From contig JAINUG010000229.1 in assembly GCA_029706075.1 (NCBI GenBank), positions 672,001-736,000 of the forward strand: DNA of 64,000 bases, written 5' to 3'. This stretch comes from Aldrovandia affinis. Its lineage: Eukaryota > Chordata > Actinopteri > Notacanthiformes > Halosauridae. The position numbers and the translations under genes are program-made. The notes below the pieces were generated by a model. That model searched no databases and was not told the origin of the DNA. It was given only the letters and a program-made list of their open reading frames with translations. Below are positions 4,984-62,734 of this stretch, one piece after another. Each line of letters opens with the position of its first letter. The first letter of the stretch is position 1.

Positions 4984-7900
4984 ATGGCTGAAGCTGGAGA
5001 TGTGGCGTGTGATGTCTGCACTGGGAGAAAGCACAAAGCCGTCAAGTCCTGTCTGGTGTGTGTGGCCTCTTACTGTGAACCTCACCTCAAGCTTCACAAT
5101 GAGCTCAACCCAGGGAAGAGACACAAGCTGATCGATGCCACTGGACACCTGCAGGAGAAGGTCTGCTCTCATCATGACAAACTGCTGGAGGTTTACTGTC
5201 GTACCGATCAGCAGTGTATCTGTCATCAGTGTGCGATGGATGAACACAGAGGCCACGATACAGTCTCAGCTGCAGCAGGAAGGACTGAGAAACAGGTAAG
5301 AACTGTAACTCTGTAGTAGCAGGTCTCCTACACATAACACTTACACTTTTTACAGTGGTGATAGTGACAACCTTGGTTTATTGCTTCAACATGTATACTT
5401 ATGAACTGTGCTTCACTGATTTAATTTATTTTGTAGTATTTTATAAATGTGGAAATAAATTGAAAAAGGAAGTGACGTTTTTAGGTCATAAGTTCAGTGA
5501 CAAAGCAGTAAGAGCAGGAAATGAACACAAGCCAGCTCTCTGTGACAGCTCTGTTCCCCCCTCACCCCCCCGTTCACTCCCTGAATGAGAATCAACATGG
5601 TGTGTGTGATACAGTTTCATGGTTAATTATAGTGTCATTTTTAATACTTCTACAGAAGTATAATTTAACAGATGTGAATGTATTGCAAGATGATATAATA
5701 AGGAAAAACCATCTGTCCACAGAACCAGCTGGAAGTGACACAGAGGAAATCCCAGCAGAGAATCCAGGAGAGAGAGAAGGCGCTGCTGGATCTGAGACAG
5801 GCTGCGGATTCACTCACGGTGGGTACTGACCAGAGGAGAACACAACAGCTGGCTGCTGGATGGAAGAGCCATTTCAGGGCTCAGTCAGGGCTCTCCCCCA
5901 GTCAGCCAGTGAGGAGCCCAGTGTTGGGCCACTTTCCAGCCCTGTGGGGCTCAATCCCACTGAGCCACACTGTGGGGAACAGGCTGTCTGGGGCCCCAGT
6001 AAGAGCTGAGTGAAAGGCCTAGTTAAAATGTACAGCCCTCCTCTCTGTGTGTCTCCTGACAGCGCTCTGCACAAGCAGCAGTGAAGGACAGCGAGAGGAT
6101 CTTTACTGAGCTGATCCGCTACCTTGAGAGAAGGCGCTCTGAGGTGAAGGAGCTGATCAGAGATCAGGAGAAGGCTGCAGTGAGTCGGGATAAAGGACTC
6201 ATAGAGCAGCTGGAGCAGGAGATTGCTGAGCTCAGGAGGAGAGACGCTGAGCTGGAGCAGCTTTCACACACAGAGGATCACATCCATTTCCTCCAGGTAA
6301 CATCACTGGCTCTCTCACAATCTGCACTGTGTACATACATGGTGAGGTGTGTTCCTTATTTACAAAGATCTGCTCCTGGCATCTCCACAGGAATGTGTAT
6401 TGAGACTGTTTGGTTCTCTGTCTGTCTGTCTGTCTGTCTGTCTGTAGAGCTGTCAGTCTGTCTGTGACCCTCCTGGACCTGGAGACCTACCCAGAATCAC
6501 TGTCAATCTACACGTCTCCTTTGAGGCTTTGAGGAAACATGTCTCTGAACTGAAAGAGCGACTAGAGGACATCTGCAAGGGGGAATTCGTCAAGATCTCT
6601 CAAACAGGTGATAACAGCAGAAATAGTTTTCTTAATTTTATGTCATCTTTAACATTTAGGAATTATATTAAGCAGTTTCGTCATTTTGTGATAAGGGATA
6701 TTCCTCAGCGCTGGCAGGATGTTTTAGCAGAATTCTGCATGCAGGGTTTCAGCTGGAGCTTTGCCCCATTCAGTGTAGTCTTGTTGACTGGGTGAACCCC
6801 ATTCCACACTTCCATACAACACAATAAGCTTGATAATACTGGATTTAAAAAAAAAAAAAAATTCTAATTCTAATAAGTATACTGTGTTTAATCTATGGCA
6901 CCTTATTTTTTGTCCTCTCTATGAAGCTTTTAATGGATTAAAACGGATTTTCATCCCAAGGTAGTGGTAACTCAGTTTGAGTTTTCTGGTCTGTTCATTG
7001 CACCTCCTTCTTCCTGCTCTCTGTCTGCTCGCCATGGCAACCAGGGAAATGAGCAACATTGTTACAGTTTCAAACCCTCAGATCCAACTGTCACTGCTGT
7101 TTAAAAGCAAACTGCCAAAACTACTGAGCCTCCAGCGCTCAGCACCATATATTCCTCACACTTTCATTTCATTTGTTATTAACCCTGGATGAGCTCAGTT
7201 TGCATTTACCTGCATTTTATTGGTTAAAGTATCTTCCCATTTCTCCAGGAAATATGATAGAAAGTTCATTTTTAGGAGCTCATCTTTCTTGTGATCTCTC
7301 TACAGTGAAAGAAGTCCATATTCTAGAGCCCAGGACCAGAGAGGACTTCTTACAATGTGAGTATGTAATTAAAACTAAATTAAAACAATTTTAAACATTT
7401 AAAAAAATATATTTAATTGAAACGTGTGTAAAATGTGTAAGAGATGTAATGTGATGCTTATGATCAGTGAGCTCTCTTCTCTCCTTCTTCTCCTCCATCA
7501 GATTCCTGTCAGCTCACACTGGACCCCAAGACAGCGCATAGACTCCTCCATCTGTCTGAGGGGAACAGAGAGGTGACATGGGTGAGACTCAGCCAGTCAT
7601 ATACTGATCACCCAGAGAGATTGAGCAACTGGGACCAAGTGCTGTGCAGAGAGGGTCTGTCTGGGTGCTCTTACTGGGAGGCTGAGTGGAAGGGGAGGAG
7701 GGGGGGGGTTTATATAGCAGTCTCATATAAAGTGATCAGCAGGAAAGGATGGGATGTTGTTCACAGTGCTCTGGGACATAATGACAAGTCCTGGAGTTTG
7801 GCCTGCTCTCCTTTCAGTTGCTCTTTCTGGCACAATAAAGAGCAGACTGTACTCCCTGCCCGCCCCTCCTCCAGAATAGGAGTGTATCTGGATCACGGGG

Positions 7901-13985: not shown

Positions 13986-13986
<1 letters not shown>

Positions 13987-16480: not shown

Positions 16481-16542
<62 letters not shown>

Positions 16543-27800: not shown

Positions 27801-27865
27801 CAGAATCACTGTCAATCCACGCGTCTCTTTTGATGCTTTGAGGGAAACAAGTCTCTGAACTGAAA

Positions 27866-30738: not shown

Positions 30739-30997
30739 GGAGAAGAAATCAAAAGGGGAAAACTCTCCAAGAGACAAAATGTTTGAAAGAAAATAAACAA
30801 CATGCTTAAAATGATTAAACAAATGAATTAATAAAACATTTTAAAAAATATGATATAAATATAAAGTGCATTTCCTTTTATCAATAAGTTCAAAAAGTCT
30901 TTTTGGGGGATGTGTGTTTGTGGTGAGGAGTGATTTTCTCTTAAGGAACTTCCTGTAGGGTCAGGTGAAACTAGAGAAACCAAAGACACGCTGAGAG

Positions 30998-31048
<51 letters not shown>

Positions 31049-33069: not shown

Positions 33070-33292
33070 TGTAATTAAGCAAAATGTTAAGATTATGGGA
33101 AATTGATTTAAATAAAAACATTTAAAACTGCTTTTAAGCATTATGCTTTTCAACTGTTTTACTTTCCCCAAAGTTTTAAGATTGCTTCTTAAAACGAATT
33201 TTGAAAACAAAACCATTTTTAATGAAAAAGCCATTTTAATTGTTTATATTTAAATTAATTTCCCATAATCTTAACATTTTGCTTACTTGCTT
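33070..33292. repeat. Inverted repeat, unit B copy
   Basis: The arms (AAAATGTTAAGATTATGGGA and complement) match 10384-10592, and the minisatellite again follows directly. Confidence 0.7.
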
Positions 33293-33299
33293 ACTTAGA

Positions 33300-34227
33300 G
33301 TGCGGTTCTGTGTGCTCAGTAGGTAGAGCATGGTTCTGTGGCTCAGTAGGTAGAGCGTGGTTCTGTGTGGCTCAGGAGGTAGAGCGTGGTTCTGTGTGGC
33401 TCAGTAGGTAGAGCGTGGTTCTGTGTGGCTCAGTAGGTAGATTGTGGTTCTGTGTGGCTCAGTAGGTAAAGTATGGTTCTGTGTGGCTCAGTAGGTAGAG
33501 CGTGGTTCTGTGTGGCTCAGGAGGTAGAGCGTGGTTCTGTGTGGCTCAGTAGGTAGAGTGTGGTTCTGTGTGGCTCAGTAGGTAGAGCATGGTTCTGTGT
33601 GGCTCAGTAGGTAAAGTGTGGTTCTGTGTGGCTCAGTAGGTAGAGCATGGTTCTGTGTGTCTCAGTGGGTAGGCGTGGTTCTGTGTGGCTCCAGAGGTAG
33701 AGCGTGGTTCTGTGTGGCTCAGTAGGTAGAGTGTGGTTCTGTGTGTCTCAGGAGGTAGAGCATGGTTCTGTGTGGCTCAGGAGGTAGAGCGTGGTTCTGT
33801 GTGGCTGGCTCAGTAGGTAAAGTGTGGTTCTGTGTGTCTCAGGAGGTAGAGCATGGTTCTGTGTGGCTCAGGAGGTAGGCGTGGTTCTGTGTGGCTCAGT
33901 AGGTACAGTGTGTGGTTCTGTGTGGCTCAGTAGGTAGAGCATGGTTCTGTGGCTCAGTAGGTAGAGTGTGGTTCTGTGTGTCTCAGGAGGTAGGCATGGT
34001 TCTGTGTGGCTCAGTAGGTAGAGCGTGGTTCTGTGGCTCAGTAGGTGAGTGGTTCTGTGTGTCTCAGGAGGTAGAGCATGGTTCTGTGTGGCTCAGTAGG
34101 TAGAGCGTGGTTCTGTGTGGCTCAGTAGGTAGAGTGTGGTTCTGTGTGTCTCAGTAGGTAGAGTGGTTCTGTGTGGCTCAGTAGGTAGAGCGTGGTTCTG
34201 TGTGGCTCAGTAGGTAGAGCGTGGTTC
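33300..34227 (+). repeat. SINE A-box minisatellite, unit B copy
   Basis: Same 29-bp unit as at 10610, about 32 copies, with more length variation between units (for example GGTAGGCGTGG and a GGCTGGCTCAG unit). It ends in the same SINE. Confidence 0.92.
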
Positions 34228-34376
34228 TGTGTGGCTCAGTAGGTAGAGCATGGCCTTGACAAGGCTTAGGTTGTGGGTTTCAATTCCCACTGTGACCACA
34301 TATACAGAAAAATGTATGCATTCACTACTGTAAGTTGCTTTGGATAAAGCGTCTGCTAAATGGCGCATATATATAT
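34228..34376 (+). mobile_element. tRNA-derived SINE, unit B copy
   Basis: The A box TGGCTCAGTAGG is followed by the B box GGTTTCAATTCCC, with one extra T compared with unit A. An L2-like tail and (AT)n follow. Confidence 0.82.
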
Positions 34377-34694
34377 ATCTCTTTTAAGAACTGACTGTCA
34401 GTGTGTGAGACACTGACAGTAAATAATATAAGAATAGTTTGTGAGAGTGTGTGATTGTGAGTGAGTGTGAGACCGACTGTGTGTGTGGGTGTGGGAGAGA
34501 AGAGGAGGGGAGAACATACACTCACACTGTGCCTGTTACATATATAGAAAATGTATTGAAATCCTGTTATTAGCAGCACATGTGATGTGCGCTGGCGCCA
34601 TTAGCTGGACGAAAAAAAGACTGCATGCTGGCTTTTGCCCCAAGTTCCAAACGGCACAATTTATGCTTGTAAAAGGCCACCAAATCTCTATTTT

Positions 34695-36170
34695 TTATTT
34701 TATTTATTTATTTCTGTAGCACCTTCCCAGCAACACAGCACAAAGTGGGATTAAAATAAAAGACAAAAAATAGACAGAGCATAAAACAAACGAGAATATA
34801 AAATAATAGAAACTCAGGTTAAAAGGTTGTAACAGCAAGTGTGTAAAAGTATGTTTTTAAAAGGGTTTTAAAGGAGGACACTGAAACAGCTGTTCTAATA
34901 TCTACCTGGAAGGCTGTTTGATAGAAAGCTCTCACCTTTAGTTTTCAGCCTAGACTCAGACAGCCAGCAGTGCCTTATCAGATGATCAGTGGCCGTCTGC
35001 TATGGTAAGGTGACAGTAGCTCAGTGATATATTCTGGTGCCGAACCATGCCTTGCTTTGTAAGTAATTAATAACATTTTTAAATCAATTCTAAAAACTCA
35101 ACTGGGAGCCAGTGCAAAGAAGCCAAGATTGGGGTAAAGTGAGATCTCCTATTTGTCCTGGGTAGCAGCCTAGCCGCTGAGTTTTGCCCTAGTGGAACCG
35201 GGCCAGAGTTGGCTCAAACATGTATATAGGCAATTACAATAATCTAACCTAGAGGAAATAAAAGCATATAATTTTCTCAGTGTCTTTACCACGACAAGAA
35301 TGACCTAAATAGTTCTTAGCTGGTGACAGCATGAAAGCTGAACTAACTTTTGTATGTTGGTTAAAATTGAGATGGGGTTAAAAAATCACACCATGGATTC
35401 TCGAAGTAGGCTTTACATTGAAACAAAAGCCAAGATTCAACTGGATTTGATTGGAGCCAAACTAACATTTGATTGGAGACCAGAATCAGTGCTTCAGTTA
35501 AAAGCATGAATTAACTTCTCAGCATCTGTTGAGTTAAAAGCGTCTGTACTTCTTGGGTGGACAAATGCTGTTTTGGTCACCTTGTTTATGTTTATGTAGG
35601 TTTAAAACTTAAATCAGTCTAAGAGTACATAGACTTGTTACTTCCAATTTATTCTGATAACTAACATTGAAAGTGTCCTTTTGGCTTTGGGGCAACTAAT
35701 AGTATTTCTGTCTATTTAGATTTTAAGACATGTGCTAATATTGTTTAATTGCGTGAATGACTGACTAAATCAACTCAAATTGTAAATGTATTATAATAAT
35801 ACTAACCTACGAAATGAGCAGTATTAGTTTCCTCTCAGCAAGTACATAAAGGGTATATATGCAATTGAAATAAGTTGAGACAACTGCAACAAGTTATGTA
35901 TGTTTTTACCGATGTTTGGGTCTCTTGAAATTTAATAACAAATTATCTCACCGCAATATATTAAATTTAAACCATTCAGAGATATTAGTCACCTGACATT
36001 ATTAAAATGCTGTGGCCATTATTGTTAAATGCAATTATCAAAGAGAATAAAACCTGAAGCATTTTGTTTTGCAGCAACAAGAGTCTTCTCATGTCCATTA
36101 GCCATTTAGTCTACATGCATCAGTGTGTGTGCCAGTACACCTGTTTAACTGGGGTATTTCTTTAGACAAG
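34695..36170 (-). mobile_element. Degenerate L2/Rex1-group LINE, unit B copy
   Basis: It is homologous to 12005-13500. The 3' half (34700-35650) aligns readily. From about 35690 to 36170 the match becomes poor, with many substitutions, unlike its surroundings. No long open frame remains. Confidence 0.78.
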
Positions 36171-36493
36171 TCGCCTCACCTTGAGCAAGACAATTCTCAT
36201 TCGCCTCCTTCGAGATGGAATTACTTACACGTTCTGGAGACACCCTTACGTGCTTCACGGTGAACTCGAGAGCCAGCCTAAAGAAGTGAAATAACTAGTA
36301 ACTTAATTTAATTAAGTGAATCCTTAAATAGTTACCACTATCATTAGTAAATCTGTAAAGTATCTTAATCATAACTTTATATTTCATACCAGGAACCAAT
36401 TAGTTGCCTTTCTTTGTACTTCTTCCAACATCTCCTATGTCTTTCTTAGAGTGTGGTTCCTGAAAGTCTCTCTCTCTCACACACACACACACC

Positions 36494-36572
<79 letters not shown>

Positions 36573-37135
36573 CAGTGGCTATCTTTTGAAACAAACTTTT
36601 AGTCACTGCCCTAGCATGAGTGAAATAGTATCCAATGCACCTGTCTTCCTGTGCTTGCGGCTTGTAGCGTTATCGCCGGCGTAGACACACAGGCTCCGGG
36701 CTGAGTAACAAGCAAGCAACAAAGTATCCGGATGGCCGTGTAGTGATGTGGTAGTAATATATCAAGTTCAAAAGGTGTATAAAAAAGCGATTCAAATGTT
36801 TCAATTAGAAAAGTGCAAACAAACAAAAGATGCGAGTGATTCAGTGTGTTTGAAAAAGCAGTGCTTCCACGCTTACTAGGACGCTCTTTCCCAACAAAAA
36901 CACTTCCTTATATTGTGTCAAATATCAATATACGGGTTTTCTGTTGTAATTCTTGCAGATTTTGAGGATTGTTTGTTGCTGTTTCGGTCGTTGGGATTAT
37001 TGGGATTGTGTTTTCTATTGTTGATTGTGTTTTTGCCGTTTGTCATCGGAAAGGATAAATGGATTTGCTCTTAAATTTAATAAAATGGCAATTTCTCTCT
37101 CTCTCTCTCCCTCTTAATTGTCATTAACCCTGGAT
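36171..37135. other. Unit B counterpart of 13500-14547, CA microsatellite
   Basis: It holds a (CA)n array at about 36478-36570. No gene was recognised. Confidence 0.7.
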
Positions 37136-37690
37136 GAAGCTCAGTTTGCATTTCCCTGCATTTTGTTGGTTAAAATATCTTCCTTTTCTCAGGGAAAAAC
37201 TTCATCTTTAGGAGCTCATCTCTTGTGATCTCTACAGTGGAAGAAGTCCATATTCTAGAGCCCAGGACCAGAGAGGACTTCTTTAATGTGAATCTGTAAT
37301 TCAAACTAAGTTAAAACAATAAGGCAACATGAGAATAGGTGAAAAATGTTGGAATTTGAAATACACTGTGTGAAGACAGTTACTAAGAATGATATGTTTA
37401 AAAGAAACAATGATACAAAGGGAAAGAAAATAACAAGTACAACAAAAATAGAAAATATTTAATTTAACGTGTGTAAGAGATGTAATGTGATTATTATGAT
37501 TACCAGAGCTCTCTTCTCTCCTTCTCCTCCATCAGATTCCTGTCGCTCACTGGGCCCAAGACAGCGTGTAGGCGCCTCCGTCTGTCATATCCTGATCACC
37601 CAGAGATTCGACCGCTGGGCAGTGCTGTGCAGAGAGGGTCTGTCTGGATGTTCTTACTGGGAGGCTGAGTGGAGTGGGGGCGTTTATATA
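37136..37690 (+). pseudogene. TRIM 3' fragment, unit B copy
   Basis: It holds the PRY exon near 37238-37287 (donor changed to GTGAAT) and the start of the SPRY exon near 37536-37690, cut by the same Tc1 relic. It has extra small deletions compared with 14548-15129. Confidence 0.82.
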
Positions 37691-38310
37691 CAGTCCAGAT
37701 CCATAAGTATTTGGACAGTGACACAATTTTCATCATTTTGGCTCTGTGCGCCCAGCACAATGGTTGAAATGAAACAATCAAGATGTGCTTTAGAGGTATA
37801 GACTTTCAGCTTTAATTTAGGGGTTTGTCAAAAATATTGCTTATGAACCATGTAGGAATTACAGCCATTTGTATACATAGCCCCCCCAATTTTAGGGGCT
37901 CAAAAGTAATTGGACAGGCTTCTTTTAATCGTAAATTAAATTTTCATTTTTAATACTTGGTTGCAAATCCTTTGCAGTCAATGACTGCCTGAAGTCTGGA
38001 AAATAACCCATAGACATCACCAGACGCTGGGTTTCTTCCTGGTGATGCTCTGCCAGGCCTTTTACTGCCACTGTCTTCAGTTCCTGCTTGTTCTTCAGGT
38101 CAGGTGATTGGATTTGATATTGCAGAACATTCCACTTCTTTGCCTTAAAAAGTATTAAGAAAGCTTTCGCAGTATGCTTCGGTCATTGTCCATCAGCACT
38201 GTGAAGCGCCGGCCCAATGAGTTTTGAAGCATTTGGCAGATAATATAGCCCTATACACTTCAGAATTCATCCTGCTGCTTTTGTCAGCAGTCACATCATC
38301 AATAAATAGG
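37691..38310 (-). mobile_element. Tc1-like relic, unit B copy
   Basis: Same terminus (CAGATCCATAAGTATTTGG) and the same minus-strand transposase scraps as 15130-15740, with further indels. Confidence 0.82.
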
Positions 38311-39039
38311 ACTAAAACATTTCAAACAATAAAAGAATCATTGAAAGTTCCAAATCAACACTCAACATAATTATCTTCCACAAAATGAATAATATAATAG
38401 GCCCTTATGAATGAAAAGAAAACGAAGTTCTGCAATTAGCCCCTCTGCTTACTGTAAACCACTTGATAATGAATAAACTGAAACCTGCACGTTGTTAACG
38501 TCATTATAGTCTTGTTTCTCCATGCCGTGAAATACACTGTCAGTGGGCGTGTTCAGGACGTTGCTTGAACAACCACCTCACTCTGCGCTGTGCTGTTGTT
38601 TAGGCGATGGGGAGATCTTGCTGGTTTTCTGTCAGCATATAGTGAAGCCTGCTCTGCTCAGCTCCATGTGGTTACCTGGCACAATAGGTCTGTTCCTGTC
38701 CAGCACAGGGCATACGTAACGTAAAACAAACAATACAAACAAAACAAACGAACGATTTCCAAATATAAGTCAAACTAGCAAATGTAAAATGCACCTATGT
38801 GTAAAAACACGCTTTTTAGATTTTTACCTCAGTTAAAGGTTAATGGCTGTGACATAGTTTTTCAGATAGCAAAGAGTTCACGCGCTCAAACTCCACCTCC
38901 TTAAACAAACACTTTCACTTTCACATCCACAGCCTTCTGGAATAACGCGTTAACAAGCACAGACACCATTTTATGGGGTGGATTGAGAACTTCTACACAC
39001 CTCGATTCCTGGAACAGAGCAGAAACAGGTATGTTGGAG

Positions 39040-39103
<64 letters not shown>

Positions 39104-39387
39104 AACACACACACACACACACACTCTCTCTCTCTCTAAGCAGTAACATACAGTTACATCAGTGGTAGTTATAGTTCAGCAACAATACTTAGCGAATTGG
39201 CACAGTGGACCTTAGAACAACACACCTGGACACTTATAATGCAAAAGTGTTGATGTTATATCTGTGTGGAATCTTACAAAGGTTCCCTTGCCTTGAAACA
39301 AAGATCTAAACAGCCTGGGTGCTCTACTGCCAAAAGGACTCGTGACTTTGTCCCGTAGTCCCAGGAGTGGGGTAGGGAAGGCAGAGG
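38311..39387. other. Unit B counterpart of 15741-16840
   Basis: Non-coding, with a (CA)n array at about 39041-39122. No gene was recognised. Confidence 0.7.
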
Positions 39388-39913: not shown

Positions 39914-40013
39914 NNNNNNNNNNNNNNNNNNNNNNNNNNNNNNNNNNNNNNNNNNNNNNNNNNNNNNNNNNNNNNNNNNNNNNNNNNNNNNNNNNNNNNN
40001 NNNNNNNNNNNNN
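39914..40013. other. Assembly gap (100 N)
   Basis: Exactly 100 N. Flanks align to 17384 and 18107 in unit A, so the real missing length is probably near 722 bp. The gap hides the first half of the L2 ORF1. Confidence 0.97.
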
Positions 40014-48238: not shown

Positions 48239-50110
48239 ATGACAGAGAGAAGGGCATTGGGCATGGAGGGTTCTGGAGTGGCAGACACGGAGACTGGGCG
48301 TGTATCCTCCCATCACAGTGAGTTCTTTGTTTCTGTCGATCAAACAATTTTTTTACATTTCATATAACCCCTTGTATACAATTCCCACAGAATGGGAAAT
48401 ACAATAACTAATACTTATATTTGCAAATACTGTATTTGGTATTTATTCTTCATTGAGCAGCCTGTAAATATGAACAAATAAAATGTAAGTATTACAGATA
48501 TGTGTTCTTTTATGGGTTGTACTGGAAAAGATACATAATGTCTCAATGATAGTTGAGTAAAACAGTTTTTTCCTGTTACCTGAAGAGATTCAATCGAGTG
48601 GCCAAGGAAAAAGCCAGCAACAATATGTGTATCTGTGAAATATTTTTTGAGATGGTTTGTTTCATTATGCTTATAGGCTTAAGCTTTGTTGGTAAATATT
48701 GTATACAGTAAAACCAAATTATACTTATGCGATAATCTATTCTTCACTTACACTCTTATACTGTATCACCTGATATAAAGTGCATCCTCACCATTTGCTT
48801 CTTCTTGTAACCCTTCAGTATTGTGTTTGATATGCCTTTAATCAATGAATAATGTTTAATTAGGCCTATAAACTCCTATGTACATACATGACTTTGATGA
48901 TTAGATGTTTCAAAGTTCAGCATTGCATAATGCAAATAACGTCCTTACTGTAATGTACTATAGTAAATAATATAGTCTCATATTAAATAAATAAATTAAT
49001 GTTGTGCTATTGCTGTTAAACAATTAGGAAAACACTGTTTGGTGACTCATGTACAGGGATGATCAAAATCTCAAATTATTATAATGGGGTTGTTTCCGGG
49101 TGCCCAAAGGGACGGGACAGCCAATTAACCAGAGGAGGCCGAGTGGAGAGATCTGGCTGGGGTGTATGTCAGGATCAGAGTCTGGAGGTAGGAGGGATCA
49201 GTACCCTTAGCCTCCTGAAATGCCAGCACCAGTGTTTTGTATTTAATTTGGGCTGCTATCGGAAGTCAGTGAAGTGTGGTGTGTAGTGGAGTCATAAGTA
49301 TGAATTTCAGTAGCTTGAAAACCAGACACACTTTTTCATATTAAGTATAGAATTTTTGTCTGCAAGGTTTCCAAGCTGAATGAAATGTTATGAGTTGTCC
49401 CCTAATGAGGAATATATTGTGTTCTTTCTCTCTGACAGGGGAGGAACACCGTCTCTCAGAGCTGAGGATTGTGCTGCTGGGGAGGAGAGAGAGTGGGAAG
49501 AGTTCAGCAGGAAACACCATCCTGGGCAGAGAGGAGTTTGAGTCTGGAATAAGAACTGCACAGTGTGTGAAGAGACAGGGTGAAGTAGCTGGGAGGCAGG
49601 TCACTGTGGTCGACACACCAGGCTGGTGGAGCACCTCGTCTGTGAAGGAGACTCAAGAGCTGGATAAACAGGAGATTGTGCGCAGTGTGTCTCTGTGTCC
49701 CCCAGGACCCTACGCTCTCTTCCTGGTCATTGATGTGAGCTCATCATTCACAGAGACACACAGGAGATCAGTGGAGGAACACCTGGAGCTTCTCAGTGAG
49801 AGAGTCTGGAGACACACTATAGTGCTGTTCACCAGGGGAGACTGGCTGGGAGACACAACCATTGAGCAGCACATTGAGACTGAAGGGAAGGCCCTCCGGT
49901 GGCTTGTAGAGAAATGTGGGAACAGGTATCATGTTCTCAACAATGAGAACAGGGGTGATGGCACTCAGGTCACAGAGCTGCTGGAGAAGATAGAGGAGAC
50001 AGTGGCCAGGAACAGAAGTGGTCACTTCACCATAGAAGGGAGTGATGAGGGGTTTAAAGGAGAGAAAGTGGGGAAGAGGAGGAACAGCATGGAGTACGAC
50101 CCCCCTAATA
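48239..50110 (+). CDS. GIMAP-B: GIMAP-family (AIG1-type) GTPase, probably incomplete 3' end
   Basis: Exon 1 (48239-48317, GT donor) and exon 2 (49439-50110, AG acceptor, GT donor) join in phase to give about 250 residues. From residue 35 the AIG1 domain shows G1 GRRESGKSS (41-49), G3 DTPGWW (85-90), the GIMAP box LCPPGPYALFLVID (112-125) and G4 TRGDW (158-162); HVLNN near residue 195 may be G5. GIMAPs bind GTP on endomembranes and act in lymphocyte survival and immune defence. Earlier in-frame ATG codons exist (48218). Exon 2 ends in phase 1 after DPPN, so a further exon is expected but not seen; read-through stops at 50172. Compared with GIMAP-A it lacks the RREEEW coiled-coil tail. It is the only intact GIMAP here. 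Confidence 0.82.
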
Positions 50111-50446
50111 GTGAGTTCTATTCATTATCTTCTACAGTACAGATTTTATTTTACAGTTTAGCTGCACATTAAAAGTCCATCACCTCTCCTCCACTCTTTG
50201 AGAACACAACTGAACAATGTACAGAGTATACAACATGACTGTTCTAACTGTAGTGTGCATACACTTTGTACACCTTTTTAATCATGTGCTAATGTGGTAT
50301 ACAAGTCAGCTTAGCAAACATATATTACATGTACATAAGTAATTTGTTTCAGTTACTTTGGGTGAAAAGTATTCATCTGGTTTTCTTATTAAAGTCAAGC
50401 TGAATAACACAGACAGATTTAGTATTACAATAGAGAACTCAAGGGG

Positions 50447-50805: not shown

Positions 50806-52790
50806 CATAACATAACATAACGTAACATAAGGGGAAGACGAGAACAGGCCATTCAGCCCAACACTGCTCGTCCATTCCTACCACTAATCTGCTCACAATG
50901 CTTAGTTTACCCAAAGGCTAGAGTGTCTAACACTGGATCGAGCCTGGCCTTGAATACCCCTAGTGTCTCAGCCTCCACTACATGTCCAGGCAAGCTATTC
51001 AGTGCATTGATCACTCTCTGTGTGAAAAAATATTTCCTAGTGTCCGTGTGAAATTTACCCTTTGTCAGTTTCCATTTATGCCCCCTCGTTCTGCTAACCG
51101 AACTCAACTTGAATAATTCACTTTGTTAATTCCTTTAATACATTTAAAAGCCTCAATCAAATCTCCCCTAAGTCTCCTTTTACTAAGCTTGAACAGTCCA
51201 AGCATCTCTAGCCTTTCCTCATAACACTTGTCTTTTATGCCTGGAATCAGTCTTTGGACCTTTTCCAGGGCATCTATATCTTTTTTGTAATGCGGTCCCC
51301 AGAACTGCACACAATATTCCAAGTGTGGCCTAACAAAGGGATTGTATAGGGTGCGTATGATCTCCTTCGATTTGTACTCAATACTCTTGGCTATGTATCC
51401 CAGCATCCTGTTGGCTTTTTTAACTGCTACCGCACATTGACCAGTCCCTGACAAGCTTTGATTAACTAGTACTCCTAGGTCTTTTTCTACGTGTGCACAT
51501 TCTAGTTTTCTACCTCCCATAAAATAATCCTGTCCTATGTTTTTATTCCCCATATGTAGAACTTTACATTTAGTTGTATTACATTTCATTTGCCAGGTTT
51601 CTGCCCATTTCTGGATTCTATTCAGATCGTCTTGGATTACTTTAGTAGATTCCTGACTATTTGCTAAGCCTCCCAGTTTTGTATCATCTGCAAATTTAAC
51701 TAATGTACTTTCAATATCCATATCAATGTCATTTATGTAAATGATAAAGAGCAGTGGTCCCAGCACCGATCCCTGCGGGACTCCACTTCCCACTATACCC
51801 TCCTCGGATAAGATCCCGCCTATTACTACCCTTTGTGTTCTATCCAGTAACCAGTTCGAACCCACTCTAAAATGCCACCTGTAATTCCTACTGCTCTCAT
51901 TTTGATAATGAGTTTGTCATGTGGCACCTTATCAAATGCTTTTTGGAAATCTAAGTATATAATATCATACGCCTTTCTCTCATCCAGACACTTGGTTGCT
52001 TCCTCAAAAAATGTCAGCAGATTTGTCAGACATGACCTACCCTTGCAAAAACCATGCTGGCTATCCCTAAGGATGTTGTAATTTTTTTGAAATACTTCTA
52101 GTTTATCTTTAATAATAGATTCTAATATTTTGCATATGATGCAAGTTAAACTAATAGGCCTATAGTTTCCTGGATCAGTACAGTCCCCTTTCTTATATAT
52201 TGGTACCACAATACCCTGTTTCCAGTCATTTGGTACTTCACCAGTCTTTAAAGACAGTCTAAAAATACTTGCCAGTGGTTTAAAAATGATCTCGCTTAAC
52301 TCCTTTAGTACCCTGGGGTATATGCCATCCGGGCCGGCTGCCTTATTAGTCTTTAATTTATGTAATTTATCCAATACTTCCATATCCCCTATCCGCTAAG
52401 ACTTTCTGAGTAATGAATATGCCTTCCGGCCTATTAGCAGCCTCTTCTCTGGTAAAGCTCTCTACAAAACAGCCATTTAGAGCATCTGCAATATCCTGAT
52501 TTTTACAGAGCAGTGCCCCGTCTTTGTTTTTAATTCCCTTAATCTCCTCTTTGACTTTTCTTTTCCTACTACAGTATTGAAAGAAACGCTTAGGGTTACT
52601 TTTAGAATTTTCTGCAATTTGCCTTTCGTAGATCCTTTTGGCTACCCTTAGTTCTTTTTTCACACGCACACGACAATATTCAGCCTTATTACTCTCGGTA
52701 CTGTCGTTTTTATATATCTTAAACAGTTTTTTCTTCTCCCTTGATATGCCATCAATAGTTTGGTCAGTATCATATGCAGCTTGTAAATAG
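50806..52790 (-). mobile_element. CR1-clade LINE, 5' truncated, inverted
   Basis: On the minus strand the RT reads NKAAGPDGIYPRVLKEL, GNYRPISLTCIICKILE, LDFQKAFDKVPHDKL (first Asp), [31 protein letters not shown] (active site FADD) and KDLGVLVNQSLS, then a C-terminal YCVQFWGPHYKKDIDALEKVQ and LGLFKLSKRRLRGDLIEAFK, as in CR1. Three frames are used (breaks near 52380 and 51850), so it is inactive. It ends in (TTATG)n at 50806-50832. It inserted next to the text GTTCAACATAGTCAT, which is continuous with GTTATCTCTGC in unit A. Confidence 0.9.
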
Positions 52791-53224
52791 ATCTACAAAC
52801 ACACAAGTTAAAAATAGTAAATTTTTCTGCTGTCACAAAAGTTGTGAAAGCACACACTAAACTATAGTGACGAATTGTTTTGCCAATGTGCGTTTGTTCA
52901 TCAAGGTCTTGGTTATGTAAGGGTGTGAAAATAGTTTAGCACATCTGAGATCTAAATAGCTAAAAACCTGTTTTTATCAGAACTGGTCACATTTATTTCA
53001 GGCTGTGGGAGGGCTAAATGCTAAATACCTGAATATTCATTATTCATTGTCCACACCTCTAAGATCTGTCAGATGGGCCATCTCTCTCTCAAAGGCCATC
53101 AGAGTAAGCAAGTCAGTGAGCCATGCAGAGCCATTCATGTTTTTTTCATTTTGGAAGATGTATTTAAAACAGAACACAAACTACAGTAGGATATACAGGG
53201 GAATGCCACATATTACAAGTCATA
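52791..53224. other. A/T-rich stretch, no gene recognised
   Basis: No domain, RNA or repeat family was recognised between the CR1 5' break and the tandem repeat. Confidence 0.6.
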
Positions 53225-54492
53225 CAGCCTAACAATAATGCACATAATATCCTCCTGAGACCCAAGGACAAAAGGGTCTTCCAATTAAACTTTTTGCGAT
53301 TTCATGCCTCTTTAGAGTTAAAACAACAACTCACAATTTAGATTTTAAATGGCTAAGCAATATTTGAGTTACCATTGCTCCTTTCACGACAAGCGCTTCT
53401 TGTGGCAGCAGCCATTTTGGCTCTCAATTTGTTACGTTGAAACACGCGGAATATGTAGTCACAAGACGCGGAATTCATATATTGAATATATATATACGAG
53501 TATTTGATATTTTGTCCTCGTCGCTTTCCATCAATGCTCTCAAACACTGCAGCGCAGAAAATCTTTCCATCTTGAATAAAATTGTATGTCTGTATAAAAT
53601 CTTGCTTCAAATTGTCAGCCTAACAATAATGCACATAATATCCTCCTGAGACCCAAGGAAAAAAAGGGTCTTCCAATTCAACTTTTTTTGTGATTTCATG
53701 CCTCTTTAGAGTTAAAACAACAACTCACAATTTAGATTTTAAATGGCTAAGCAATATTTGAGTTACCATTTCTCCTTTCACGACAAGCGCTTCTTGTGGC
53801 AGCAGCCATTTTGGCTCTTCAGGAAGAGGTTTATGTTAGAATATGTTTAGCGTCACAAGACGCGGAATTCATATATTTTCACGAGTATTTGAAAACAAGC
53901 GAAATAAAATAAATATCAGCATAGACTGTTGCTGGCAGATTGCAAGCGTAAAAACAGACAAGATGCTACATACGATTTTTAAATTCGAAAATTTATAATG
54001 CTGTCTCTCTTCATCTGAATCCTCTTCAGTATCAGGACATGACTAGTTGTTGTCCTCGTCGCTTTCCATCAATGCTCTCAGACACTGCAGCGCAGAAAAT
54101 CTTTCCATCTTGAATAAAATTGTATGTCCGTATAAAATCTTGCTTCAAATTGTCGGGACAGTTTGTGTTGTTTACGCCAGCGTTTTCACACATGGCCCCA
54201 CGCCCCTCCCCACGCACCTCCCCGAAACTAGCACCTAGTTACCATGTCAATAGAAGGGGGACGTTACTAAAAGGTAAAAAACAGAGTAAAAAGCAAGGTT
54301 TACTTTTGGTCTAATTAACCTAATTTAAAAAATCCCATTTGATTTGCCAGTGCTCAAATCGGAAAGTCGCGATTCTAAGGTTTCTGTCAATGTTTTTGTC
54401 GCGTGTGTATGATAAAGTATCGCGAAGTTAGAAATAGTAATATACTTTTATTGCTGCTGGGAGCGTCACCGCTCCCGTCGACCTCAGGGGGT
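53225..54492. repeat. Tandemly duplicated, partly deleted unclassified (piggyBac-like?) element
   Basis: A unit starting CAGCCTAACAATAATGCACA occurs at 53225 and again at 53616. Both continue through about 190 nearly identical bases (CCTCCTGAGACCCAAGG.., CGACAAGCGCTTCTTGTGGC). A second shared part (TCGTCGCTTTCCATCAATGC.., to ATTGTC) lies at 53514-53615 and 54056-54155. The first unit lacks about 150 bp between the shared parts. The array ends GACCTCAGGGGG then TTAA at 54492, where L2 sequence begins. The ends and the TTAA suggest a piggyBac-type non-autonomous element, but this is inference. Confidence 0.7.
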
Positions 54493-56340
54493 TAAGCCAC
54501 TTTTAAAGAAACCAAACCTTGACCCAGAAAATCTCAGTAACTACAGGCCAATTTCTAATCTTTCTTTTCTCTCAAAAATTCTAGAGAAAGCTGTAGCTCA
54601 GAGACTGACTTCGTTCCTGACATCAAATTACATCTATGACACTTTTCAGTCAGGATTTAGGCAACACTATAGCACTGAGACTGCTCTTATTAAAGTTGTC
54701 AATGACTTACTGATATCAGCTGACCGTGGATGCGTCTCTATTCTTGTGCTTTTGGACTTAAGTGCTGCGTTTGACACAATAGACCACCAAACTCTTCTGA
54801 GCAGACTTGAAAACCCAGTTGGACTGCGTGGACAGGCACTCTCCTGGTTTAAATCCTACCTATCAGATAGGTATCAATTTGTGCAGTTAAATGATGAGCC
54901 CTCTGCTCTCATCAAGGTGGAATATGGTGTCCCTCAAGGTTCTGTTTTGGGGCCATTATTGTTCTCCCTTTACATGTTGCCACTTGGTGATGTCATTCGT
55001 AAACATGGCGTACATTTTCACTGCTACGCAGCTGACACACAATTATACCTATCAATGAAACCTGGCGAAGGACAATTCGAACAGTTGGAGGCCTGTTTTA
55101 AAGACATAAAAGACTGGATGTCAGATAATTTTTTATTGTTGAATACTGATAAAACAGAGATATTGGTCTTGGGGCCCAAAAACCTCAGAAGAGGGTTATC
55201 TGGTTTATCTCTTCATCTGGATGGTTGCTCTGTTGCTGCCAGTTTGGTGGTAAAAGACCTTGGTGTTACTATAGATCCTGGTCTCTCATTTGATAGTCAC
55301 ATCAAAAACATTTCCAGAGTAGCCTTTTTTCACCTGAGGAATATTGCCAAAATTAGGGTCTTCCTGTCATTAATAGATGCAGAAAAATTGGTACATGCCT
55401 TTGTTACATCTAGATTAGATTATTGCAATGCATTACTGTCTGGTTGTTCCAATGCCTCACTCAGGAGCCTACAACTCGTACAGAATGCTGCTGCAAGGAT
55501 CCTGACTAGAACAAAGAAATATGAACACATTAGTCCTGTGTTAGCGTCACTTCACTGGCTTCCTATAAACTATCGTGTAGACTATAAGGTACTCCTCTTA
55601 ACTTATAAGGTGTTGCATGGACTTGCACCCTCTTACTTGACGGATCTACTTCATCCGTCCACCCCCCACGTTCACTTCGCTCACAAGATGCAGGCAACTT
55701 GGTAGTTCCTAGAATATCAAAAAATACAGCAGGTGGCAGAGCTTTCTCCTATAGAGCTCCTTTACTGTGGAACAGTCTACCCATCTCTGTGAAGGAGTCA
55801 GACACGGTCTCAATTTTCAAGTCTAGGTTAAAAACACATCTCTTTAGTCTCTCTTATAGTCATTAGGTGCAGATGTGGAGGGGGCGTAGCAATAGAGCCT
55901 TCTGGTGCAATGAGCTATCCTTACTGTCACCATTCATAAGTGATGATCCGCCCCTATCAGGACTGCTGATGATGTGGTGGGATGGTCTCTGAGTGCCCTC
56001 ATGGCTGTGTGCTCCCTGTGCCACTCACCTAATTAGTTATGCTGCCCTAGATTACTTCTGCTGGTGCAAAAGCGTTATCACTACTCTTCCCCCTGATCCG
56101 GTGTGATATTTATCATAGTCATAATTGCACCTTTCCTCATTGATCATTGATAGAAAGAAAAAAGCGAGCGAGAGGTCTAAAAACTATGTGGCTCCACTCT
56201 CTCTGTATGCCTGACTGCCCAAACTAATTAACCCCCAAAACATTCTCCCGCCAGAATAGCAAAGGGAAAGTTAAAAGGTGTAGGACACCTACTGGCTATT
56301 ACAAATACTGCATTTAGGCTCCTACAGATTGATTGATTGA
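54493..56340 (+). mobile_element. L2-clade LINE copy, 5' truncated, 3' end complete
   Basis: It begins at TTAAGCCACTTTTAAAG inside the RT coding region and reads through [12 protein letters not shown] and [19 protein letters not shown]. The active site is YAAD instead of YADD (GCT for GAT near 55030), a direct knockout. The thumb and C-terminal region [20 protein letters not shown] is present. A frameshift near 55660 breaks the last part (SRAFSYRAPLLWNSLPIS in another frame). The 3' UTR ends in (GATT)n at about 56327-56337. This copy supplies the 3' end missing from unit A and B copies. Confidence 0.92.
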
Positions 56341-57314
56341 AAACATAGACATTTCAGACTACTGTTTCTACTATACCTCTCCCGCTCTCCCTCACTCCCT
56401 TCCATCCCAAGCCACACTTGCTAAAATGTTGTTTAATCAAGACTTTATTGATGCTTTCACTGTTATATGTAGTCTTGACAGACTCCATCTGGGCAGTCTG
56501 CACCACCCTACCCATTTTGCTCTCTATCCTCCCTACCCCCCGAGTCTCTAGTTTAAATAATCCTGCGCTACCCTAAGCATACGCTGCCCCAGAGCGTAGG
56601 TACCCATCCGGTTGGTATGGTATCTCTGCTTTAGCTGGCTACACAAAGCCTAACAAAGGCAATTACGGCTAACCTGTCTCACGACAGTGGTTATCAACTC
56701 GCTCTGTCAACCCTGGTTTTGCTGATCGAGCACGTGAACACAAAAGAGGCGGCGTTTGTAACACAGCCAATCACATGCAACATGGAGAGATCCAGAGCAC
56801 TGTTTAACGAAGCAGGATTGGTGGGTTAGGGAGCTAACTTTGGGCTTAACCCTGGGTTCTCGGTCTCATGTCCGTGGCTCACCCAGGGCTGCGGGTGATG
56901 GGAATGTGAGTGCGATCTATTGCACCAATCACTCGGGAATCATATGAGAAAATTACACCGCACTTAATATGCAACAGTACATTTTATTCATTATTGATAG
57001 CTACACACGTATAACTATATAAACTGTATGTTTGCACAGGTTCTCGCATCACCAACAGAATACGTATATGTACCGGTGGCTAGAAAACGTAGGGCAATAC
57101 ATACAGTTTGCTGCACAGTGATAGCATGGCTTTGAGGAGTTGCATTTGTGACATGCGGCTCTAGAAGCTTGCAAAGATACAATATTCCCTCCGCAGAGAA
57201 TCTTTATCTCTGATATTTAAAAAACTATTACGCAATTCTCTAGGATTGGTGAGGCCATTTTCCAGAGAGCTGATTGGTGAGGGGGTGGGATTATTATAGG
57301 ATTGGATCCGTTAG
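56341..57314. repeat. Unknown 0.28 kb, then spacer shared with 26980-27696
   Basis: I recognise nothing in 56341-56618. From TATCTCTGCTTTAGCTGGCT (56619) the sequence matches the spacer before TRIM-B with few differences. It is non-coding. Confidence 0.7.
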
Positions 57315-57439
57315 CCTACATTTACATATTAGGCATTTAGCAGATGCTCTTATCCAGAGCGACTTACACAGTTTACATTTCTTTACATACAATCCATTTA
57401 TACAGCTGGATATTTTACTGAAGCAATTCAGGTTAAGTG
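57315..57439 (-). mobile_element. SINE 3' fragment adjoining TRIM-C exon 4
   Basis: Reverse complement of the body and tail of the SINE at 1447: AGGCATTTAGCAGATGCTCT, TATCCAGAGCGACTTACAC, then TACAGCTGGATATTTTACTG. It ends exactly where homology to TRIM-A exon 4 begins (AGAATCACTGTCAATCCAC), so it marks the loss of the 5' part of that exon. Confidence 0.85.
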
Positions 57440-59384
57440 CCAGAATCACTGTCAATCCACACGTCTCTTTTGAGGCTGTGAGGAAACATGTCTCTGAACT
57501 GAAAGAGCGACTGGAGGACGTCTGCAAGGGGGAATTAGTCAAGATCTCTCAAACAGGTGATAGCAGCAGAAATAGTTTTATTAATTTTATGTCATGTAGG
57601 CCCTTTAACATTTAGGAATTATATTAAGCAGTTTCATCATTTTGTGATAAGGGATATTCCTCAGCGCTGGCAGGATGTTTTAGCAGAATTCTGCATGCAG
57701 GGTTTCAGCTGGAGCTTTGCCCCATTCAGTGTAGTCTTGTTGACTGAGTGAACCCCATTCCTCACTTCCATACACAATACGCTTGATAATATTGGCAAAA
57801 CATTTTTTTAAATTTTTTTGACCAAATTCTAATAAGTATACTGTGTTTAATCTATGGCACCTTATTTTGTATCCTCTCTATGGTAGTGGTAACTCAGTAT
57901 GGGTTTCCTGGTCTGTTCATTGCACCTCCTTCTTCCTGCTCTCTGTCTGCTCGCCATGGCAACCAGGGAAATGAGCAACATTGTTGCAGTTTCAAACCCT
58001 CAGATCCAACTGCCACTGCTGTTTAAAAGCAAACTGCCAAAACTACTGAGCCTCCAGCGCTCAGCACCATATATTCCTCACACTTTCATTTCATATTGTT
58101 ATTAACCCTGGATGAGCCCAGTTTGCATTTACCTGCATTTTATTGGTTAAAGTATCTTCCCATTTCTCCAGGAAATATTATAGAAAGTTCATTTTTAGGA
58201 GCTCATCTTTCTTGTGATCTCTACAGTGAAAGAAGTCCATATTCCAGATCCCACGACCAAAGAGGACTTCTTACAATGTGAGTCTGTAATTAAAACTAAA
58301 TTAAAACAATTTTAAACATTTTTTTTTTTTTACATTTTTAAACAAAAATAAGAGCTAAGTGTGTGAATGAAAGAAAATATTTAATTGAAACGTGTAAAAT
58401 GTGTAAGAGATGTAATGTGATGTTTATGATCACTGAGCTCTCTTCTCTCCTTCTCCTCCTCCATCAGATTCCTGTCAGCTCACACTGGACCCCAACACAG
58501 CGCATAGACTCCTCCGTCTGTCTGAGGGGAACAGAGAGGTGACATGGGAGGGACAGGTCCAGTCATATCCTGATCACCCACAGAGATTCAGCAACTGGCC
58601 CCAAGTGCTGTGCAGACAGGGTCTGTCTGGACGCTCTTACTGGGAGGCTGAGTGGAGTATGGGGGGGTGGGGTATGGTGGCGGTGGCGGTGGGGGGGGTA
58701 ATGGCAGTGGCGATGGGGGGTATGGCGGTGGCGATGGGGGGTATGGCGGTGGCGATGGGGGGTATGGCGAGGCGGTGGGGGTATGGTGAGGGGTATGGCG
58801 GTGCCGGTGGGGGGTATGGTGAGGGGTATGGCGGGGCCGGTGGGGGGTATGGTGAGGGGTATGGCGGGGCCGGTGGGGGGTATGGTGAGGGGTGTGGCGG
58901 GGCCGGTGGGGGGTATGGCGGTGGCGATGGGGGGTATGGCGGGGCCGGTGGGGGGTATGGTGGGGGGTATGGTGGGGGGTATGGCGGCGGCGGTGGGGGG
59001 GATGGCGGCGGCGGCGGTGGCGGTGGCGGCGGGGTTGACGGCGTGGAGGGGGAGGGGGTTCATATAGCAGTCTCATATAAAGAGATCAGCAGGAAAGGAG
59101 AGGGTGGTGACTGTAAACTGGGAGGTAATGACAAGTCCTGGAGTTTGATCTGCACTCCTTCCAGGTGCTATTTCATGCACAATAAAGAGGAGACTGAACT
59201 CCCTGCCCCCCCCTCCTCCAGAATAGGAGTGTATCTGGATCACGGGGCAGGAACTCTGTCCTTCTACAGCGTCTCTGACACAATGACCCTCCTCCACAGA
59301 GTCCAGACCACATTCACTCAGCCCCTCTATCCTGGGTTTGGGGTTTATTCTGGCTATTCTGTAAAACTGTGTGATCTGGGATGA
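57440..59384 (+). CDS. TRIM-C: 5'-truncated TRIM copy with Gly-rich insert in SPRY
   Basis: Three exons remain and all are open and correctly bordered: 57440-57556 (end of exon 4, RITVNPHVSFEAVRKHVSEL), 58227-58277 (51-bp PRY exon) and 58468-59384. The last exon encodes SCQLTLDPNTAHRLLRLS, YWEAEW, then 133 extra residues (58659-59057, repeats of GGMAVAM and GYGEGYGGAGG). The normal SPRY continues with VHIAVSYKEISRKG, LDHGAGTLSF and ends VKLCDLG. The insert keeps frame. B-boxes and most of the coiled coil are missing upstream, replaced by a SINE fragment, so this is either a pseudogene whose frame has not yet broken or a gene using an unseen 5' exon. Most of its sequence is close to TRIM-A. 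Confidence 0.65.
58659..59057 (+). repeat. In-frame G-rich coding minisatellite (399 bp)
   Basis: First, 21-bp units around ATGGGGGGTATGGCGGTGGC; then 33-bp units encoding GYGEGYGGAGG (about four); then irregular GGC/GGT runs. Strong strand bias: G on the coding strand, hence the proline-rich frames on the other strand. Likely seeded by the G-rich codons that TRIM-A has at the same place (GGGGAGGAGGGGGGG). Confidence 0.92.
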
Positions 59385-59404
59385 GGGAGAGAGAAATCAA
59401 AGAG

Positions 59405-59514
59405 TACACACACACACACACACGCACGCTCACACACTCACACACACACACACACCTGCACCTACACACTCTCATACACACACACACTCACACTCTGACA
59501 CATGCTCACACACA

Positions 59515-59546
<32 letters not shown>

Positions 59547-59668
59547 TACTCTGACACACACACATACACACTCTTACACACACTCTTATGCATTTTAGTG
59601 TTTGAGTGTGCATGCGTATGTATGTATGTGTGTGTGTGTGTGCGTGTATGCATTTTTGTGTTTGAGTG

Positions 59669-60022: not shown

Positions 60023-62394
60023 TAAAGCAGGGTGTAGGAGCCATTTATGGACTTGCGGGTTTGTGTGGAAATTAATTATGAAAATGCTTACAAAATATTC
60101 ACATTTAAGTTATTACAAATATTAGATTTATTTTGGGATTATTATGATGCATTATGTTTATGCCTTTAATATGTTTATGCAATTTAACCTGCCTTTATGC
60201 TTATAGGTATTTGCGTATAGCTGATACTTCCCCTTTAAGACACTCACCTTTCCTGGTGATGTCATATTTACCTGTGTGTCTTACCTGGATGTTAGGGCTG
60301 TTCCTGTGGGAGGGGGGAACCGGGGAAGCTAAAAGGTTTTCCAGCGCATATCCGCATTGTGCCCGCATGGCTTTGATTTGTTTGTTTGTTTCAAAGAGAA
60401 ATGAGTGAATAAATGATTCTTTTATTTTTGGATCGGAACTCTTTCATTTAAGAATGCATGTGAACTAACGGCTATCCCTGGTCTGAAGTGACTATTACGA
60501 AATAAGAATTTGGAATTTGCGAATACGAAGTCACTACACCGGGGTCTCCAACACGTCACACTTTCTTCTGTATGATGAAGATCCGGGAATGGATTTGAAT
60601 TCTCAGCTGTTACAATTTCTGTGCAATGCTAATCATAAGGACCTAAAATGTGATAACATTTTACTTCAAGTGAAGTCCCGTAGACCTGTCATTCTCGACT
60701 CACCGATATGGGGATGGCTATTGACACAAAACCACACAGAAAGTAGAAACAAATCTGTTGTATCAATTTTCTTTTCTTTTCTTGGTCTGGTTTTGGAGAA
60801 TATAATGTATGTTTCTCAATAGTGTATGTCAGACACTTATTTCAATCATGATTTTTATTATTTAAAAGAACAATTTTGTACAATAAATCAGGGACTTAAT
60901 ATGGGCTGTTTATGTGGACATCTGTAGAATGTATGCAACACACCCAGGGAAGATTTCAGATTAAGATTATTTCATAAAGCACACTGAATTTGAGGCAGGT
61001 CCATTTTTGTTGTAGGTGCAATGCATCATGTCATTTTCTAACGTCTTCCTTACTTCCTCATGTAGAGAATGAATGCCTGTTAAATAGAGCATCAACAATA
61101 AATTGTATAATTTAGTTTCACACTTTTTAATGTGTTTAAATATCAGCAGATATCAGATTGTTTTTTCTACGGGATGTTAGTTTAATCTCTACAAATATCT
61201 TGTGCTATATTGAAATTATATCAGTAAAGATTAATTACATTTTTAAACTGAATTAAACCACACGCACACGCGCACGCACAAACACACACCACACACCACA
61301 CGCCACACACACACACACACACACACACGTAACCTATTCAATTAAATTCGATTCTAGGCAGCAGAGGATATTAAACGGACGCCATGATAAAATTATACAC
61401 ATTTGGGACTGAATGTACAATTTGGTAGGAAACTTAAAATAAAGACGTAGACCTCCACATGCTTATTGAAAAAAGTATTGTACACTGACTCCTCCTTGTG
61501 AACAAAGCGTTGCCATTTTGAACCGTGGAAACACATTTCAAAAAGAGGCCAAACTCTGATAAATACAGAAGAAACATGCTCTCATAGGCAGCCTTTAGGA
61601 ATATGAGCAGCAGGGATGAGGACGCCTAAAGGCTAACACGCTACTGCACCGGGCTATCTTCCCATCAAATGTCACATTCAAACTTCCCTACTTTGTTTCA
61701 TGAATTACATTACAATCGGTAGTTTGTCATGTGTAGGTTTCGTAGTTCTTGGTATGCACTCATTCGTATATTCATTTAGGTTCATCAGGTAAAAGTCTAC
61801 TTAACAACAGAACTGCGTGCATTATTTGAAGAAATGCATGCAAATGTTGGAGGAATTGTGCATGTTATTTGGCAGGCAATGGCCTTTTGCTGGGCGCTTA
61901 ATGAATGTATTTTCACCAACTGCTCAGTTCTCAAAATAAGTAGGCCTAAAACAATTTAAACGTAACTTTTCCGCATAGTAATCTGCAAATGTCAAAAACA
62001 AACTCTAAACTGATGAGTACGAATAACACAAATAAAAACCGATAATAGGACCCAATTCATTTTACCTGAAAATAACACAATCATCAAAGTCTTCTTTAAT
62101 TACTTATCTATAGCCTACACGTTTTATCGTTCATTTAAACAATCGCCGAACTCTTCGCTGCTCGGTATTGGAAAGATAACAGGCAATCAAAACCATGGAC
62201 ATGAACCATGAACGTATTTCTCAGGGAACTTTTACGTTATGATTTTTGCCACAAAACTCCAAAGCCTACAGTATATCATCATTATCATAGCCTAATAGCG
62301 TAGAGCATTTTCTTTCTCACGGTTTAGTCCATTTAGACACAGAACAGAGTGTGTACACAGAATGTTCCCGGTAACAGACAGACCTGAACCACAC
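60023..62394. other. Unannotated stretch; weak kinase-like motif and CA repeat
   Basis: No gene could be established. An open frame at 60517-60822 contains NHKDLKCDNILLQ, close to protein-kinase subdomain VIb (HRDLKxxN), but the expected DFG and other subdomains are absent. A (CA)n array lies at 61262-61328. The remainder is A/T-rich without recognisable features. Confidence 0.55.
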
Positions 62395-62672
62395 AGAACC
62401 ACGCTCTACCTACTGAGCCACACAGAACCACGCTCTACCTACTGAGCCACACAGAACCACGCTCTACCTACTGAGACACACAGAACCACGCTCTACCTAC
62501 TGAGCCACACAGAACCACGCTCTACCTACTGAGCCACACAGAACCACGCTCTACCTACTGAGCCACACAGAACCACGCTCTACATACTGAGCCACACAGA
62601 ACCACGCTCTACCTACTGAACCACACTCTACCTACTGAGACACACAGAACCACGCTCTACCTACTGAGACAC
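62395..62672 (-). repeat. SINE A-box minisatellite, third array (inverted)
   Basis: About ten units of GCTCTACCTACTGAGCCACA plus CAGAACCAC, the reverse complement of the unit at 10610. It lies outside the segmental duplication. Confidence 0.92.
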
Positions 62673-62734
62673 ACATAATCTGTTTGATTGCTCCTGTACC
62701 GATCTCTTGCTCTAGGTGTGATTATTCTCGCCAT

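Follow-up and report, generated by a model that had tools for sequence, protein, structure and literature searches.

This study analyzed a 64,000-nucleotide stretch of the genome of Aldrovandia affinis (contig JAINUG010000229.1, positions 672,001 to 736,000; hereafter the window), in which the TRIM copies TRIM-A, TRIM-B, and TRIM-C and an AIG1 (GIMAP) exon are located. The features of the TRIM-C locus are listed in Table 1, together with the site in TRIM-A that corresponds to the repeat array of TRIM-C.

Table 1. Features of the TRIM-C locus and the corresponding turn of TRIM-A (positions in the window)
Feature	Position	Strand	Remarks
Turn of TRIM-A, counterpart of the array	7690..7713	+	24 nt
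AIG1 (GIMAP) GTPase exon, open	49384..50172	+	GTGAGT donor-like site after 50110, phase 1
DNA between the GIMAP and SPRY blocks	50808..56618	+	about 5.8 kb
Block common to the 5'-truncated copies L041, L049, L056, and L057	56619..59404	+	
Dispersed repeat adjoining the truncation point	57317..57441	+	second copy at 1545-1670, minus strand
TRIM exon 3, 3' part	57440..57556	+	first 43 nt and original splice acceptor absent
Exon 4, linker	58227..58277	+	51 nt, phase 1 at both ends
Last exon, PRY-SPRY (B30.2) with insert	58468..59384	+	both halves open
Expanded G-rich turn (minisatellite)	58656..59063	+	408 nt = 136 codons, in frame
Lone 19-bp unit	58764..58782	+	from splitting at ATGG; moves the array register by one base
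AC microsatellite at the end of family homology	59406..59583	+	

Other parts of the window are also repetitive. The TRIM-A region with its repeats (5115-16565) recurs about 22.6 kb further on, at 27862-39124; the TRIM part of the recurrence shows 94% identity and many single-base losses, a gap of 100 N follows at 39914-40013, and the segment is either a duplicate with poor polishing or a falsely duplicated haplotype. Three arrays (10603-11569, 33296-34253, and 62384-62675) consist of a 29-bp minisatellite, two with about 33 copies each and the third given as the reverse complement. Immediately after the turn, the same additional sequence, perhaps a mobile element, interrupts the family SPRY exons at 15094 and 37655 and that of copy L132.

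The final exon of TRIM-C was found to keep one open frame from 58437 to its stop at 59384 (315 amino acids), with the array included between the last codon of YWEAEW on the 5' side and the Ile codon of IAVSYK on the 3' side. Pfam profiles matched the sequence flanking the array for PRY (5.4e-22, 77.6 bits, cut-off 27.5) and SPRY (1.3e-12, 48.4 bits, cut-off 26.3), and with both above their cut-offs, a B30.2 domain is present in TRIM-C. An initial inspection of the letters alone (the sequence-only reading) had proposed an in-frame repeat inside this domain, which these results confirm; the 399 bp that it delimited at 58659-59057 form the core of the full 408-nt insert. Minisatellites consist of tandem units of about 10-60 bp, and the array, with periods of 21 and 33 bp, is one of them (Tandem Repeats Finder reported 21, 33, and 66 among other periods). 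Splitting the array at ATGG yielded 22 internal units, 21 of which have lengths divisible by three. The remaining one, the 19-bp unit, separates 37 MAVAMGG-like residues, rich in Ala, Val, and Met (30% Gly), from 99 GGYGEGYGGAG-like residues (65% Gly); the label glycine-rich, previously given to the whole repeat, therefore suits the later residues but not the first 37. The 19-bp unit shifts the register, and the array as a whole is in frame only with this unit.

The array was found only at the TRIM-C locus in the genome. A search with its 24-bp unit at up to three mismatches returned eight matches, six of them inside the array, and the reversed-pattern control returned three. No second allele of the locus was present among the 40 scored matches (of 305 candidates) to the first half of the TRIM-C exon, which, itself aside, were at most 95% identical. 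One non-overlapping G-quadruplex motif was counted in the array, and such motifs are present in 20 of the 102 short turns of the family described below.

The open frame through the array tells little about TRIM-C. Over 58657-59062, the SPRY frame contains no stop, the other two plus-strand frames contain one and five, and on the minus strand, two frames are free of stops and the third has a single stop at the edge. In 2000 dinucleotide shuffles of the array, one given frame remained open in 6.5%, before the one-third chance of a suitable length, and for an array of near-identical units, this figure is even milder. Because unit lengths are multiples of three, whole-unit gains and losses need no selection to keep the frame. 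The open frame was considered as a sign of selection on TRIM-C and was rejected.

We examined the same turn across the family by searching the genome (1,222,302,279 bases in 2576 contigs) for the exon core TACTGGGAGGCTGAGTGG, which was found at 258 places when one mismatch was allowed; the reversed pattern, used as a control, yielded none. A sample of 115 distinct exon copies was assembled from 100 listed of the 258 core places, first-half matches, and the window; the copy on C1000 was left out, its turn being cut by the contig end. Eight copies in which the end of the turn was unrecognisable were dropped before the frame count. Among the 107 that remained, the turn measured 14-34 nt in 102, and these short turns are 63% G and comprise 91 distinct sequences. 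Long turns were found in L118 (132 nt), L119 (135 nt), L078 (176 nt), and TRIM-C, the turn of which is the longest among the copies sampled. The 65-nt turn of L101 is ambiguous, is not G-rich past its start, and may be misread; it was included in the overall frame count and excluded from the breakdown by G run. Because the TRIM-A turn at the same place contains GGGGAGGAGGGGGGGGG, the family holds a seed for the array.

Both the length and the sequence of the turn vary strongly between family copies, and its lengths keep the frame in 68 of the 107 copies as opposed to one third by chance (p=2e-10, which is optimistic since the copies are related). These results uphold the earlier idea of a variable site in the B30.2 domain. 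The frame was kept in 28/38 copies with a longest G run of at most 5, in 33/44 at 6-8, and in 7/24 at 9 or more, that is, in 61/82 at up to 8 and 7/24 beyond (p=9e-5, again optimistic for related copies). Long pure G runs are thus near the chance level and interrupted runs well above it, and sequencing error may contribute to the low value at runs of 9 or more. On contigs shorter than about 120 kb, 39/68 turns kept the frame, and on larger contigs, 29/38 (p=0.06, likewise optimistic); part of the frame breaks could stem from such error. These lengths give the turn the appearance of a slippage hotspot on which frame acts as a filter. Selective filtering is nevertheless not proven, because copies with both exon halves intact (40/56) differ little from the rest (28/51; p=0.11, also optimistic for related copies).

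The long turns occupy at least three places on the tree, and this placement indicates that large expansions of the turn arose at least three times. L118 and its sister L119 (support 0.987) lie on the same contig, each with the turn in frame and the frame broken downstream; in L078, the turn breaks the frame and stops are present. TRIM-C groups with TRIM-A and TRIM-B (weakly, 0.339) and with L116 (0.892), all three of which have short turns, and the turns of its six nearest relatives by identity measure 17-23 nt. An exact-flank pattern search for further turns of 42-102 nt found none, and the same search for 102-162 nt found only L118 and L119.

The sequence-only reading had treated TRIM-C as a three-exon TRIM gene, and an intact gene of this kind was not supported. 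Homology to TRIM-A begins only at 57440, within exon 3, of which 73% is left; the B-box, CC1, and CC2 exons of TRIM-A have no match in 53500-59500, and no RING finger was among the Pfam hits in four scanned frames. No Met codon lies between the upstream in-frame stop (57271) and the array. At the other end, homology to the truncated copies stops at or before 59404. An AATAAA lies 58 nt after the stop in TRIM-A, whereas the first one after the TRIM-C stop is at 60408; TRIM-C has lost the family 3' end, AATAAA included. A stand-alone three-exon gene was rejected on this evidence. Among 20 other copies examined upstream, five carry the same exon 3 truncation (L041, L049, L051, L056, and L057), and eight have a B-box exon within the fetched stretch.

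Upstream of TRIM-C, the AIG1 exon matched its profile over 49384-50169 at 3.3e-43 in an open frame. The DNA that separates it from the TRIM block holds frames resembling reverse transcriptase by eye and is absent from L041, L049, L056, and L057, where the sequences matching 50807 and 56619 are adjacent. We paired the best 150 of 460 AIG1 candidates with the listed SPRY places, matching 10 contigs by hand. Among these places, all 11 AIG1-SPRY pairs within 25 kb were on the same strand, and AIG1 was upstream in nine; the pair on C2127, 77 kb apart and on opposite strands, fell outside the 25-kb limit. SPRY exons and an upstream AIG1/GIMAP block constitute a recurrent unit in the assembly, which the earlier inspection did not foresee. 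For L118, an open AIG1 exon is likewise present 4.6 kb upstream; both long in-frame copies with upstream sequence examined, TRIM-C and L118, lie downstream of one. The GIMAP tails have a 21-bp coding repeat of their own (EEEWRRR type), seen at 26179-26289 and in L041, L049, L051, L134, L136, L137, and L138; its number varies between tails, and it is lost at the TRIM-C locus.

This arrangement would allow an expressed GIMAP-B30.2 chimera, in which splicing would join the AIG1 exon (49384-50110) to TRIM exon 4 and then to the SPRY exon, and the protein would carry a flexible insert of 136 residues in its recognition domain. Both a start motif and a donor were located in 10 tails, and eight of these (the TRIM-C locus, L041, L049, L051, L134, L136, L137, and L138) end in phase 1 without stops, at eight different lengths; the other two are that of the B locus, with a stop, and that of L056, in phase 0. 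Exon 4 begins in phase 1, and when AIG1 exon, exon 4, and SPRY exon are joined by script, the frame stays open as far as the SPRY stop. Four of the eight sequences have a common stop some 60 nt past the donor, and the other four differ; this was counted for the chimera, but the shared stop could be the plain end of the GIMAP gene. The common orientation is also expected under tandem duplication. In L049, L051, L056, and L057, the acceptor of exon 4 has been lost, and L041 yielded no exon 4; because this exon is damaged or undetected in each of the five other truncated copies, we gave the chimera lower weight. In addition, the donor is missing in L057 and was not found in L139, the loose start motif has many further matches without a donor, some probably by chance, and no first exon with a start codon was found. 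The stretch of about 2.6-2.9 kb above the tails of L041, L049, and L057 contains no AIG1 core; on C163, the contig of L049, there is one 10.7 kb above the SPRY exon. On balance, we regard an expressed chimera as unlikely, although it fares best among the alternatives.

For investigating selection, pairwise dN/dS was determined for 42 copies with open exon halves. The median was 1.50 over 814 pairs of other copies (5-95%: 0.63-4.4) and 2.14 for TRIM-C against them. Between TRIM-C and TRIM-A, amino-acid changes were found at 43/389 sites, compared with 3/115 for silent changes and 42/816 for the upstream, mostly intron sequence (p=0.005 and 0.0003). Because such an excess is unexpected in a long-dead copy, it speaks against a long-dead state of TRIM-C; against L010 and L011, the excess was not significant. 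Introns could be compared in 19 of the 42 copies (169 comparable pairs), and their divergence exceeded dN in 135 pairs and was exceeded by it in 34, with distant introns aligning badly. In the 36 pairs with intron divergence below 0.12, the medians were 0.114 for dN, 0.049 for dS, and 0.074 for introns. Changes private to single copies numbered 186 amino-acid to 44 silent, which is near neutral (p=0.18), and those private to TRIM-C, 5 to 0. These findings suggest older diversifying selection in the family, without demonstrable constraint on TRIM-C.

The ratios above one would be expected if the long turn were a selected hypervariable recognition loop of a working gene, contacting ligands, and changes in the length of loop V1 matter in TRIM5alpha, according to PMC4546234. 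The intron comparison and the near-neutral private changes argue against this possibility, as do the missing TRIM 5' exons and start codon of TRIM-C and the repetitive nature of an insert found nowhere else. Structure prediction, which the initial reading had suggested, placed the short turn between two strands, and for TRIM-C, modeled with TRIM-A, strands at residues 57-62 and 198-203 flanked the insert in a model of low confidence (mean pLDDT 47.7; 41.6 for TRIM-A alone, likewise poor). The pLDDT was below 50 over residues 64-77 and 101-195 of this poor model, which also counts against a ligand-contacting loop. Strand alternation in a B30.2 sandwich would place the turn and loop V1 on one and the same face. 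We consider a selected loop at TRIM-C highly unlikely. Least credible of all is an assembly or sequencing error that made or altered the array in the G-rich tract: TRIM-B in the same window has many one-base losses, often in homopolymers, and small contigs kept the frame less often, but the array is long, ordered, found only at TRIM-C, and open on both flanks.

We therefore favor, as the probable explanation, a slippage-prone, frame-filtered turn in the family, with the long insert of TRIM-C tolerated or neutral in a rearranged copy. The B30.2 exon of this TRIM16-like multigene family has a G-rich codon run at the turn between the YWEAEW and IAVSYK strands; the run would slip and expand often, and frame-breaking lengths would be removed by selection from copies still in use. 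In TRIM-C, the run would have been enlarged through slippage and unequal exchange to units of 21 and 33 bp. The copy itself is a rearranged fragment composed of a GIMAP exon, inserted DNA, and truncated TRIM exons 3-5; a working TRIM protein is probably not made from it, and the insert would be tolerated or neutral on this account. Between the two options first proposed, a recognition loop or a neutral expansion in a dead copy, the latter fits TRIM-C better. Counting against this explanation, both SPRY halves of TRIM-C are open, and of the other three long turns, two keep the frame.

The family resembles several known systems. Among solved structures, TRIM16 was the best TRIM match of the TRIM-A SPRY (9e-29; TRIM25, 1.9e-22), and TRIM-A shares with it a B-box, a TRIM coiled coil, and a PRY-SPRY, a second B-box-like match being below the cut-off. 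Unlike TRIM16, the present family has hundreds of near-identical exon copies and a hypervariable G-rich turn, and TRIM-C has no N-terminal TRIM exons. The finTRIM (ftr) genes likewise form a large fish TRIM family with B30.2 diversity, which is under positive selection and found mostly in loop 1, the link from strand 2 to strand 3; substitutions are described in their variable loops, and the available part of that report describes no length expansion at this turn (PMC2657112). In TRIM5alpha of Old World monkeys, loop V1 of the B30.2 domain is longer by 2 or 20 residues through in-frame insertions, and restriction was tested (PMC4546234). The likeness to TRIM-C lies in the in-frame lengthening of a loop, whereas TRIM-C involves another turn and 136 residues and is known from sequence alone. 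In zebrafish, B30.2 exons are joined to an immune NTPase family in about 400 NLR-B30.2 genes, according to PMC5041008; an immune NTPase accompanies B30.2 here as well, as an AIG1/GIMAP neighbor, with fusion unproven. A literature search combining 'SPRY domain', minisatellite, and glycine-rich found no paper.

If AIG1 and SPRY were transcribed as one gene, the architecture would be one not seen among the papers listed in the literature searches, PMC8195603 included. A fish lineage could then have evolved GIMAP-B30.2 genes, in which an AIG1 GTPase switch would be combined with a fast-evolving TRIM recognition domain and the slippage-prone G-rich turn would serve as an inherent source of length variation, a suggestion that we regard as unlikely. 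The favored explanation, slippage filtered by frame, bears on how B30.2 loops acquire new lengths. A change in loop length affects the target range of TRIM5alpha, as indicated in PMC4546234, and the origin of new lengths is rarely visible. The hundreds of near-identical exon copies in this genome constitute a natural experiment on turn length, in which the length of the uninterrupted G run goes with loss of frame and large expansions are repeated at one turn.
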